Assembly: GCF_000013445.1 (NCBI RefSeq)
Contig: NC_007796.1
Location: forward strand, 620,001-684,000
Source of the DNA: Methanospirillum hungatei JF-1
Lineage (GTDB): Archaea; Halobacteriota; Methanomicrobia; Methanomicrobiales; Methanospirillaceae
Length of the DNA: 64,000 nt
Direction of reading: 5' to 3'
Part shown: positions 30,817-33,317 of the stretch, in pieces
Layout of the letters: each line of letters starts with the position of its first letter
Position numbering within the stretch: the stretch's first letter is position 1
Position numbers and translations under genes: made by a program
Notes under the pieces: generated by a model
The model's input: the letters and a program-made list of their open reading frames with translations, nothing else
The model's database searches: none
What the model was told of the DNA's origin: nothing

Positions 30817-31391
30817 ATATATCATTAGAACGGGCATTAGATGTCCTGATGCATGATGGTCTGGTTGTATATCCGACAGATACCCTGTATGGTCTTGGAG
30901 CTGATGCCTTATCGGATGAGGCAATTCTGAAAGTATTTGAAGCAAAGGGCCGTGAATATCATAAACCCATCTCGATTGCGGTATCAGATCCTGACATGAT
31001 TGGTGCGGTTGCCTATGTGGATGAGATGGCAGAGCAGTTTATTGAAGAGTTCCTTCCCGGACCGGTCACCCTCATCCTTCCTGCACGAAATATTTTATCA
31101 ACACGGCTTACCGCCGGGACGAAAAAGATAGGAATCAGGTATCCGAACCATGAGGTGGCCCTTGAACTGATATCCCGGTATGACACTCCGATAACAGCAA
31201 CCAGTGCCAATCTGTCCGGTGGTCCTGACCCTGTCACGATTGATCTCTGTAATGTACCGTATGACTGTGCGGTAAATGTCGGACCACTCTCTGGGACGCC
31301 CTCAACGGTCGTTGATCTGGAGTTTCGTGAGATCATCCGGGTTGGAGCAGATATAGAGTCAGTCGCATCATTTCTGGCAAAGTGGTCCTGA
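30813..31391 (+). CDS. sua5: Threonylcarbamoyl-AMP synthase (Sua5/YciO/YrdC)
   Basis: Makes threonylcarbamoyl-AMP for tRNA t6A37. LVVYPTDTLYGLGADALS, KPISIAVSD, PGPVTLILPA, ITATSANLSG are all family hallmarks; single YrdC domain, no C-terminal Sua5 extension. Start: the first ATG (30849) gives 180 aa beginning MHDGL. In frame upstream, the sequence NISLERALDVLM continues a YrdC-like N-terminal helix back to CTG 30813, which overlaps the previous stop as CTGA and follows a purine-rich aggggg about 8 nt away. I favour CTG (192 aa), with the ATG as fallback. Confidence 0.85.
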   Translation: MNISLERALDVLMHDGLVVYPTDTLYGLGADALSDEAILKVFEAKGREYHKPISIAVSDPDMIGAVAYVDEMAEQFIEEFLPGPVTLILPARNILSTRLTAGTKKIGIRYPNHEVALELISRYDTPITATSANLSGGPDPVTIDLCNVPYDCAVNVGPLSGTPSTVVDLEFREIIRVGADIESVASFLAKWS

Positions 31392-32320
31392 TGAAACCGA
31401 TTCGACTTCGTGATTTTGTCAGGGATACGAATGGATGGTACTATGCCGTTGCAACCTATGACAACACCTTTACCATTGGATCGGTCCTGCGATATATCCC
31501 TGACCCGGCCGGAGACCGGACTGATGGAACCGGAACCAGGTACCGGAAGGTAGAGTTTGAAGAAGCGTATCGTCTCATCGCAGAGCATCATCCTGACTGG
31601 GCAGGTCTTGTTCACCGGATTCCGCATGATCAGATAACTGCCGTATTAAAACCGGATGAAGCGATAGAACAGATCGCATCTACTCATCCGAAGGTTGCAC
31701 AACTGATAAAAGCCCTCCATCTTCCTCCTTGTACCTTTGGTGTGACGGGTTCTCTTCTTTGTGGTCTTGGGGGAGAAAATTCTGACATTGATGGGGTCGT
31801 GTATGGTCCAGCCTTCAGACATGCCCAAAAGCAGCTGGTCAGGGCCATTCAGATGGGTTCGGTTGAGGAGCTGAGTGAAGATCTCTGGAAGACCGTTTAC
31901 AGGAAACGCAATCCAGATACCTCATATGAAGAATTCATCCTGCATGAGAAGAGAAAATTAAACCGTGGTCAGGTGGACGGGACATATTTCGACCTTCTTT
32001 ATACCCGTGGATATCAGGATCTTCCAGGTTTTACCATGGAGAAAGGGACCATTCTTGGAAAACGGGTCATTGAAGCTATGGTAATTGATGATCAGTTTGC
32101 ATTTGACAGCCCGGCAGTGTATGAAATTGATCACCCTGAAATCTCCCGGGTTCTTTCGTTCACGCATACATACACCGGCCAGGCTTTTACCGGAGAACGG
32201 CTCCAGGCACAAGGAATTGTTGAAAAGCACGGAAATGAGCAATGGCTGGTGGTCGGGACAACCAGGGAAGCGAAGGGAGAGTATATCAGATCCCTGTCAC
32301 TTCTTGAGCAGGAAGGATAG
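31391..32320 (+). CDS. Predicted nucleotidyltransferase (COG2413-like)
   Basis: 309 aa from ATG 31391, which overlaps the sua5 stop (TGATG); GTG 31382 is an alternative. The central motif GSLLCGLGGENSDIDGVVYG (~res 116-136) is the hG[GS]...DxD signature of Pol-beta-type nucleotidyltransferases. An N-terminal ~90 residues (WYYAVATYDNTFTIGSVLRYIPD) form a separate, beta-rich part and the C-terminal ~80 residues another. Substrate unknown. Tight coupling with sua5 suggests a tRNA- or nucleotide-related job, by inference only. Its 3' end overlaps the convergent Cas4-like gene by 24 bp. Confidence 0.75.
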   Translation: MKPIRLRDFVRDTNGWYYAVATYDNTFTIGSVLRYIPDPAGDRTDGTGTRYRKVEFEEAYRLIAEHHPDWAGLVHRIPHDQITAVLKPDEAIEQIASTHPKVAQLIKALHLPPCTFGVTGSLLCGLGGENSDIDGVVYGPAFRHAQKQLVRAIQMGSVEELSEDLWKTVYRKRNPDTSYEEFILHEKRKLNRGQVDGTYFDLLYTRGYQDLPGFTMEKGTILGKRVIEAMVIDDQFAFDSPAVYEIDHPEISRVLSFTHTYTGQAFTGERLQAQGIVEKHGNEQWLVVGTTREAKGEYIRSLSLLEQEG

Positions 32321-32995
32321 CCGTCGTGGTGCATTCTGTGCACACCGGTCCGAAAACCTGCATCGTGAGCATGGAGGATTCAGAGGTTTGTGGGGAAACT
32401 CGCCATTATCGATCTCTTTTACCTGTTGAATCAGATGGAGTACCCTTCTCCGGTCTTTCGGTGTCGGTTCATAATATCTGATAATACCTGACCGGACATA
32501 TTCAATATATATGCCTGGTGTTTTCACAGCACCGGCCTCTTCAATGCAGAGCAGAAAGGCTGCAGTTCTGATTGCATCCTCAGCCCAGCACCCGGTTTTC
32601 GGAGCCATAGTGCACCGGGTCAGGGTATATTCACCATTTTGTGCATGATATTTATCAAGGAGCCCATGAATTCCTGCTCTCTCTGATCGGACAGAAATAT
32701 CAGTCTCTGTCCAGGGTCTGACCGGAGCATGTTCCATTGCCATGAGACAATCTCTGAGGAAATGCCTTTTATCTTCTGATATCTCTGGATGTATCATATG
32801 AAGAGTATACCAGAGTTCCTCTTCGGTCGAACCCTTCTCTGCGCATGAGACCAGTTTACAAATACTGTACTGTATCGCAGGTTTTGAGGGGATATCTTTG
32901 TAAAAGAAATACTGCCGTGGACAATGAAATGCTCTGATAAGAGATGATATTGCAATACCATTATCCGGATTTTTGGAATAGCACGGTTCGGTCAT
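32297..32995 (-). CDS. Orphan Cas4-like (DUF83) protein with altered active site
   Basis: 232 aa from ATG 32995 (MTEPCYSKN); a longer form from 33019 would overlap the start region of the divergent gene. ISSLIRAFHCPRQYFFYKD at the N-terminus and PPCSRCRFSDRC at the C-terminus place four Cys as in the Cas4 Fe-S cluster (C ... C-x2-C-x5-C). HGLLDKY supplies the first acidic residue. The segment aligned by eye with the Cas4 E-x-K motif reads TLTRCTMAPKTG, i.e. Thr-x-Cys before the conserved APKTG. So the fold and cluster are kept but the nuclease centre looks lost. No CRISPR array or other cas gene is in the window. Confidence 0.7.
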   Translation of the reverse strand: MTEPCYSKNPDNGIAISSLIRAFHCPRQYFFYKDIPSKPAIQYSICKLVSCAEKGSTEEELWYTLHMIHPEISEDKRHFLRDCLMAMEHAPVRPWTETDISVRSERAGIHGLLDKYHAQNGEYTLTRCTMAPKTGCWAEDAIRTAAFLLCIEEAGAVKTPGIYIEYVRSGIIRYYEPTPKDRRRVLHLIQQVKEIDNGEFPHKPLNPPCSRCRFSDRCAQNAPRRLSFLLKK

Positions 32996-33026
32996 TTTAT
33001 TGGAACAGGCGTCAAACAAGTGTGAG

Positions 33027-33317
33027 ATGGCATCAAATGAAATTCAGGTAACTATACCACCAAATGTAGAGCCGGTCTACAGTAATATGATCCAGATAGC
33101 TTATAAGGAAGATGAATTTACGTTCATTTTTCTGCATCAGATACCGGGGATCAACCAGGCACGGGGAAAGGCCGTTGTCAGTATCAGTCCAAACCATGCA
33201 AAAAACCTCCTCGCCGTTCTGCAGCGGACCGTCGGTGAATATGAACAAAAATTCAGGACCCTTGAGGCTCCCCAGGATAAACAGCAGAACGTTACTGCAA
33301 TGACCGGATATTCATAA
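33027..33317 (+). CDS. DUF3467 small protein
   Basis: 96 aa from ATG 33027 (MASNEIQVTIPPNVEPVYSNMIQIAYKEDEF); a longer start at 33000 adds nine residues that overlap the divergent promoter region. The strand-rich sequence IQIAYKEDEFTFIFLHQIPG and VSISPNHAKNLLAVLQRTVGEYE match the DUF3467 pattern, widespread in bacteria and archaea and of unknown function. Only 31 bp separate it from the Cas4-like start, so they share a promoter region. Confidence 0.75.
   Translation: MASNEIQVTIPPNVEPVYSNMIQIAYKEDEFTFIFLHQIPGINQARGKAVVSISPNHAKNLLAVLQRTVGEYEQKFRTLEAPQDKQQNVTAMTGYS

Follow-up and report, generated by a model that had tools for sequence, protein, structure and literature searches.

Which task is left to a Cas4-like protein when the residues that cut DNA are gone and the cysteines of an iron-sulfur cluster remain? 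This question is raised by a gene of the archaeon Methanospirillum hungatei JF-1, which lies in a stretch of 64,000 nucleotides (the window; positions 620001 to 684000 of the contig in a 3,544,738-base single-contig genome). A reading of the letters alone, the sequence-only reading, proposed that the protein may derive from Cas4 and serve in a structural or regulatory capacity. That proposal is well supported: the Cas4 fold is predicted, the catalytic Glu and His are lost, the cysteines are kept, and a search for Cas1 and Cas4 found no cas gene nearby. We favor, as the likelier explanation, a vertically inherited chromosomal pseudonuclease of the Cas4/RecB fold that would hold or read DNA instead of cutting it.

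A Cas4-like gene away from CRISPR

The open reading frame is as first read, and its coordinates are collected with those of its neighbors in Table 1. Matches to curated profiles are weak. The protein scores 20.5 bits against Pfam PF01930, below the cut-off of 22.7, and 42.7 bits (E 5e-11) against TIGR00372, below the cut-off of 65; the PADLOC Cas4 profile matches it at E 1e-11. Among members of the Cas4-like family from other groups, 8 of the 9 scanned pass the PF01930 cut-off.

Table 1. Features of the Cas4-like locus, in window coordinates
Feature	Position	Strand	Basis
Cas4-like gene (predicted pseudonuclease)	32297..32995	minus	ORF, ATG at 32995, 232 aa; weak Cas4 profile matches; AlphaFold Cas4/Dna2/AdnA fold
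Cys25, predicted first iron-sulfur ligand	32921..32923	minus	45/45 alignment rows; C in 77/78 family rows, 1 gap
Ser50, motif-I His column (His lost)	32846..32848	minus	His in 37/48 ordinary Cas4, 0/78 family rows
Asp114, motif-II Asp, kept	32654..32656	minus	D in 48/48 ordinary Cas4, 27/27 of the order, 29/51 elsewhere
Leu125-Thr126-Arg127 at the E-x-K position	32615..32623	minus	Alignment columns versus ordinary Cas4
Arg143 at the Gln of QxxxY	32567..32569	minus	Q in 46/48 ordinary Cas4; R in 27/27 of the order; Q in 8/51 elsewhere
E165-Y166-x3-G170-x2-R173 hairpin, family signature	32477..32503	minus	Column counts versus ordinary Cas4
C209-x2-C212-x5-C218, predicted iron-sulfur ligands 2-4	32342..32371	minus	C in 78/78 family rows, all three columns
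Gap between divergent start codons, 31 bp	32996..33026		Sequence
DUF3467 gene, 96 aa, divergent partner	33027..33317	plus	PF11950, 44.9 bits
Nucleotidyltransferase-like gene, convergent	31391..32320	plus	PF01909, 20.8 bits (cut-off 21); 24-bp overlap of its 3' end with the Cas4-like gene
Sua5/YrdC gene	30849..31391	plus	PF01300

Structure prediction points in the same direction. From an alignment of the window protein and 44 relatives (45 rows), AlphaFold returned a model with a pLDDT of 86.9 and a pTM of 0.83, against which Foldseek ranked AdnA, Cas4, and Dna2 highest (E 1.4e-7 to 1.1e-6). In VIA-align, the highest Z score, 15.3, was reached with the Cas4/Cas1 chain 7mi4_A (rmsd 5.6, 185 aligned), followed by the I-C Cas4 8d3l (Z 14.1, rmsd 4.7, 184 aligned) and Dna2 5eax (Z 13.6, rmsd 3.5, 217 aligned). 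These matches identify the predicted fold as the Cas4-type RecB fold, the fold of a Cas4 nuclease. A PDB search with the alignment also found Cas4 (E 4e-4). The same database searched with the single sequence offered PII at E 0.31, which we set aside as a chance match.

No CRISPR features were found in the surroundings. No spaced direct repeats of at least 22 bases within 100 bases occur anywhere in the window, and a search for Cas1 and Cas4 placed the nearest Cas1 of the genome at contig position 845651, about 162 kb past the end of the window. The view that the window holds no CRISPR or cas gene was borne out as far as Cas1, Cas4, and such repeats go. A place beside cas1 is rejected, and the possibility that cas genes lie just outside the window did not come true for Cas1. 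Two other places in the genome pass the PF01930 cut-off: 1562419, a helicase-nuclease of the UvrD type, and 2099384, a Cas4 beside Cas1 (contig 2.10 Mb). This ordinary Cas4 keeps E-x-K, so it has not been supplanted by the dead copy. Elsewhere in the genome, a divergent Cas1-like frame of 319 aa (G000:C1:1573953-1574579) was matched in two pieces, besides three stronger Cas1 matches.

Active-site columns, cysteines, and a new hairpin

The family was compared with ordinary Cas4 in a 126-row alignment: 78 family rows (27 from Methanomicrobiales and 51 from other families of the phylum) and 48 ordinary Cas4 controls. The controls were drawn from 50 loci at PF01930 places in 117 genomes of Halobacteriota. 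Three of these (L302, L303, and L306) proved to be family members and were moved over; the 47 left and the CRISPR Cas4 of the genome make up the 48.

The Glu of E-x-K is the clearest loss. Its column is acidic in 48/48 controls (43 Glu, 5 Asp) and in 0/78 family rows, a count to be read with the knowledge that the family rows were gathered with the family profile, so that Glu-keeping intermediates could be under-sampled. The residues found instead are Ile (13), Leu (7), Val (6), and Ala (1) in the Methanomicrobiales rows, and Leu (21), Ile (15), Val (11), Met (2), Phe (1), and Ser (1) in the 51 rows of other families. The Lys column reads Lys in every control and, without exception, Arg (Arg127) in the 27 Methanomicrobiales rows; the rows of other families are mixed (Ser 17, Lys 12, Arg 11, Leu 7, Val 2, and Thr 2). 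The sequence-only reading had allowed that a better alignment might restore an acid-x-Lys pair; the 126-row alignment restores none. It moves the register by one, from the Thr-x-Cys first placed at E-x-K to Leu125 and Arg127, that is, Leu-x-Arg. The APKTG stretch had been counted as a Cas4 feature and marks the Cas4-like family instead: P132 is Pro in 72/78 family rows versus 1/48 ordinary Cas4, and G135 is Gly in 71/78 versus 2/48.

Other catalytic positions have fared unevenly. The motif-I His is found in none of the 78 family rows (the column includes 2 gaps and 1 Glu), and it is absent from 11/48 ordinary Cas4 too. The motif-II Asp, kept throughout the order, is gone in 22/51 family rows outside it. 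Families f13, f17, f20, f22, f26, f29, and f30 are called haloarchaeal by inference: the eight loci examined, from five of these families, combine a GC of 0.64-0.73 with one or more long frames whose pI does not exceed 4.7, and the others align with these. Sixteen of these presumed haloarchaeal rows (L221, L222, L224, L225, L227-L229, and L231-L239) have no motif-II Asp and carry Ser or Thr in the Lys column; they are the most degenerate part of the Cas4-like family.

The cysteines have not shared this fate: C25, C209, C212, and C218 are invariant in the 45 aligned rows of the window protein and its 44 relatives. The original claim of a lost E-x-K beside retained Fe-S cysteines, here predicted ligands, stands. 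Judged by its residues, the protein retains the four cysteines and the motif-II Asp of a Cas4 nuclease and lacks the Glu-x-Lys, the motif-I His, and QxxxY. We conclude that it very probably has no nuclease activity and, with almost the same confidence, that it would bind an iron-sulfur cluster. Some columns speak against a dead nuclease: Asp114 in 27/27 rows of the order, Lys in 12/51 and Gln in 8/51 rows outside it, and E165 in 58/78 family rows. A reviewer's comment on the TTV1 paper (PMC4625639) likewise holds that loss of the Glu is no proof of lost activity.

E165 belongs to a hairpin that sets the family apart. In the 78 family rows its columns hold Glu in 58, Gly in 70, and Arg in 74, versus 1, 2, and 0 in the 48 ordinary Cas4; Y166 is common in both. 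The hairpin spans strands 162-166 and 171-175 of the AlphaFold model. New conserved columns of this kind argue for a new function and not for decay. They could also belong to a residual or altered nuclease, in which the acidic ligand has moved to E165 on the neighboring strand, or to D140 or E153 on a helix, and DNA is still cut. The PD-(D/E)XK superfamily includes known cases in which a catalytic acid has moved, and both the constancy of Asp114 within the order and the near-absence of E165 from ordinary Cas4 agree with such a move. Against it, the motif-I His is gone, and Asp114 is missing from those 22 rows outside the order. The 16 presumed haloarchaeal rows, with Ser or Thr in the Lys column, all have E165 and never Asp114; the two residues therefore do not change together as parts of one metal site would. 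We regard a nuclease with a moved acid as unlikely.

Simple decay can be dismissed. Lost catalytic residues and family scores under the curated cut-offs are what a decaying pseudogene or a sequence artefact would give, yet the frame is intact, cysteines and arginines are invariant, and the gene is present in nearly all genomes of the order. Against the 92%-identical relative, the only unsaturated one, dN/dS is 0.19 (NG86) or 0.23 (YN00). Four more NG86 pairs give 0.06-0.13 at a dS of at least 1.7, one pair has an undefined dS, and YN00 on one further pair gives 0.18; because dS is above 1.7 or undefined in 5/6 pairs, the estimate rests mainly on the closest pair. The Cas4-like gene is under purifying selection. 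Decay or artefact is refuted by these observations, and we assign it next to no probability.

Distribution, descent, and neighbors

The label "orphan" does not fit. The gene is present in 128/132 good genomes of Methanomicrobiales, in 37/38 genera, and in 58/59 good genomes of the taxonomic family. There is nearly always one match per genome; the two found in G050 and G100 (family sample) and in G122 and G214 (order sample) are possibly pieces of one gene. Across the phylum sample, the family profile matches 370/388 good genomes, a count that may include some ordinary Cas4: these score up to 56 bits with the family profile, and the inspected matches cover part of the 370 genomes. The aligned family rows include 50 loci, 48 outside the order and two inside (L146 and L147), none of which has an acid at the Glu column. 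By these comparisons, what had been described as a lone oddity is a widespread family of predicted Cas4 pseudonucleases.

A quick IQ-TREE analysis, unrooted and supported by SH-aLRT only, separates all 78 family rows from the 48 controls by one branch. Support for the split is 96 with all columns and 97 after removal of 13-15 columns around the Asp, E-x-K, and Gln motifs (His and Cys columns kept). In the two trees, a single branch with support of 97 and 98 also splits off the Methanomicrobiales rows. Being unrooted, the tree shows one split and not a rooted clade; some rows are of skewed composition, and the control L295 sits on a long branch. Nuclease chemistry was probably lost once, in the ancestor common to the phylum members sampled.

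Carriage by mobile elements was considered and rejected. The gene is near-universal in the order, a search of 50,697 phage records and 72,556 plasmid records with the window protein gave no match at E 0.01, and viral contigs searched with the Methanomicrobiales alignment yielded no confirmed relative; since these were the only queries, distant viral relatives could be missed. Like solo-Cas4, the gene lies outside cas loci and is inherited vertically at the level of the order. A household job for the protein is probable.

Its neighbors offer hints of what this job may be. The divergent DUF3467 gene 31 bp away was correctly seen at the outset, and its co-conservation with the Cas4-like gene had been put forward as a check. 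Within Methanomicrobiales the pairing stands: in the order sample (34 genomes with a match, at least one without, G024), the two genes are divergent in 34/34 genomes that have both, at most 500 bp apart in 31 and 0.8, 2.7, and 3.3 kb apart in the remaining three. In 18 loci from outside the order (L128-L145), a single-sequence search found no DUF3467. In 40 loci from other genera of the order with longer flanks (L033-L072), DUF3467 is present in 31 and missing in 9, one of which (L037) ends 26 bases past the open frame of the gene. A DUF3467 reading frame is present in 57/62 loci of another set (L148-L209), and 4 of the 5 others end within 460 bases upstream. DUF3467 as such occurs in 71/146 genomes of the phylum sample. 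Whether DUF3467 is a functional partner of the Cas4-like protein we judge to be evenly balanced.

Several observations concern DUF3467 itself. There is no PDB relative under E 0.2, and the model has a pLDDT of 71.8 and a best Foldseek E of 0.047; it resembles no solved fold well, and we draw no function from it. NCBIfam has no informative match for DUF3467 or for the nucleotidyltransferase. After a variable linker the protein ends in Gly-Tyr-Ser, with G94, Y95, and S96 nearly invariant in 27 rows, which looks like a C-terminal peptide motif. Mean pairwise identity is 0.70 for DUF3467 (27 rows) and 0.51 for the Cas4-like protein (45 rows). The genome has a second DUF3467 gene (G000:C1:3228468-3228761; 64.8 bits, versus 45.4 bits for the window copy) that by score is more like the DUF3467 copies of other families; in the divergent copy, Methanomicrobiales may have a paralogue of their own.

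The divergent arrangement could also mean regulation: the cluster would sense redox state, and the protein, as a transcription regulator responsive to redox or DNA damage, would bind the region shared with DUF3467. The constancy of the arrangement, the short gap, and a predicted iron-sulfur site without catalysis all suit such a sensor. Outside the order, other neighbors stand in the families sampled although the protein signature is kept; in 3/34 genomes the pair is separated by 0.8-3.3 kb, the Cas4-like protein matched no DNA-binding domain in Pfam, and we know of no regulator with a Cas4 fold. A regulator is, in our judgment, improbable.

Of the 40 L033-L072 loci, 37 also carry the genes for the nucleotidyltransferase, Sua5, and an ACT-domain protein. 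With Sua5/YrdC and a nucleotidyltransferase so close, a role related to tRNA or RNA might be imagined, and Sua5 recurs elsewhere: it adjoins the gene in 7/8 presumed haloarchaeal loci, and in 2/3 loci of family f14 it is no more than about 3.6 kb upstream. Sua5 and the Cas4-like gene are convergent, and hence not co-transcribed, both within the order and in those 7 loci; of the 14 groups compared, just 3 have members in the Sua5 group, and tail-to-tail neighbors can persist by chance. We give a tRNA or RNA role less credence than either the regulator or the moved acid.

Other neighbors vary. In the window, an acetyl-CoA synthetase gene follows beyond DUF3467; it is found in 0/40 of the L033-L072 loci, which shows that there is no general conservation of gene order here. 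In family f24, two loci have such a gene on the other side of the Cas4-like gene. Outside the order, with one representative per cluster, the neighbors are helix-turn-helix and mevalonate genes, NifH-like or nitrogenase-like genes, ornithine carbamoyltransferase, and NfeD/SPFH; they differ between families and yield no common function. In family f8 (L144, L145, and L253-L255), 5/5 loci pair the Cas4-like gene with a divergent helix-turn-helix gene. In the f8 representatives scanned, HMG-CoA synthase-like and thiolase genes come after the helix-turn-helix gene, and a PAPS-reductase/PUA/ferredoxin protein is encoded downstream.

A proposed role and its relation to known systems

Cas4, AddB, and Dna2 hold DNA in a RecB-fold groove that is braced by an iron-sulfur staple. 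With both His and Glu gone, the usual two-metal site cannot be assembled, which leaves the holding or reading of DNA as the likeliest remaining use of the fold. In the pseudonuclease reading, the cluster would still be loaded and would brace the domain. DNA ends, or junctions of single and double strands, would be bound in the groove that Cas4, AdnA, and Dna2 use, and would be held or read, by analogy with the part played by the degenerate nuclease domain of RecC in Chi recognition. A partner or ligand would meet the protein at the hairpin, through which DNA may be passed on; among the Methanomicrobiales, the divergent DUF3467 protein would be the likeliest candidate for a partner or co-regulated product. 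That the protein binds nucleic acid at all we consider slightly favored. A broader picture is offered tentatively, and we lean a little against it as a whole: vertically inherited cellular Cas4 pseudonucleases in nearly all Halobacteriota that have kept the cluster, gained the hairpin, and read DNA ends or junctions in a household step of repair or replication, with DUF3467 as a partner in Methanomicrobiales.

Published accounts describe Cas4 in other terms. In a 2017 survey (Hudaiberdiev et al., PMC5704561), all Cas4 proteins are judged to be active nucleases, and the conserved catalytic motifs stated there for Cas4 generally are not those of the Cas4-like family. A 2025 paper (PMC12538437) describes metal-chelating active-site residues as conserved across the Cas4 members compared in it. 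Among the open-licence papers listed by our searches, no title or beginning of an abstract names a cellular dead branch of Cas4. If a large, vertically inherited archaeal branch is indeed dead as a nuclease, counts of Cas4 may mix two kinds of protein, and annotations such as "Cas4 exonuclease" would mislead. The role of a cellular iron-sulfur pseudonuclease would then become a tractable question in methanogens and, seemingly, in haloarchaea, where genetics exists.

The closest known systems each match the Cas4-like protein in part. Cas4 (PF01930, TIGR00372; 7mi4, 8d3l) and solo-Cas4 (4ic1, 4r5q) have in common with it the RecB fold and the four-cysteine module; the Cas4-like protein differs in lacking the Glu, the motif-I His, and mostly the Gln of QxxxY, in lying away from cas genes, and in its new hairpin. 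TP1, the nucleocapsid protein of TTV1, is presented in a 2015 paper as an inactivated Cas4, and is thus also a Cas4 descendant with its catalytic Glu replaced (PMC4625639). As described there, TP1 is viral, stems from a split gene, and has no iron-sulfur cluster, whereas the Cas4-like protein is cellular, of full length, and keeps its four cysteines.

The nuclease domains of AdnA, AddB, and Dna2 (6ppu, 4cej, and 5ean) have their fold in common with the Cas4-like protein, which stands alone without a helicase and has lost the catalytic residues; the iron-sulfur staple is present in AddB and Dna2. A weak Foldseek match (E 0.011) leads to the degenerate nuclease domain of RecC (1w36 chain C). RecC is a case in which a dead nuclease fold is used for reading DNA, and we know of no iron-sulfur module in it. 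Its domain is part of a helicase complex, unlike the Cas4-like protein.
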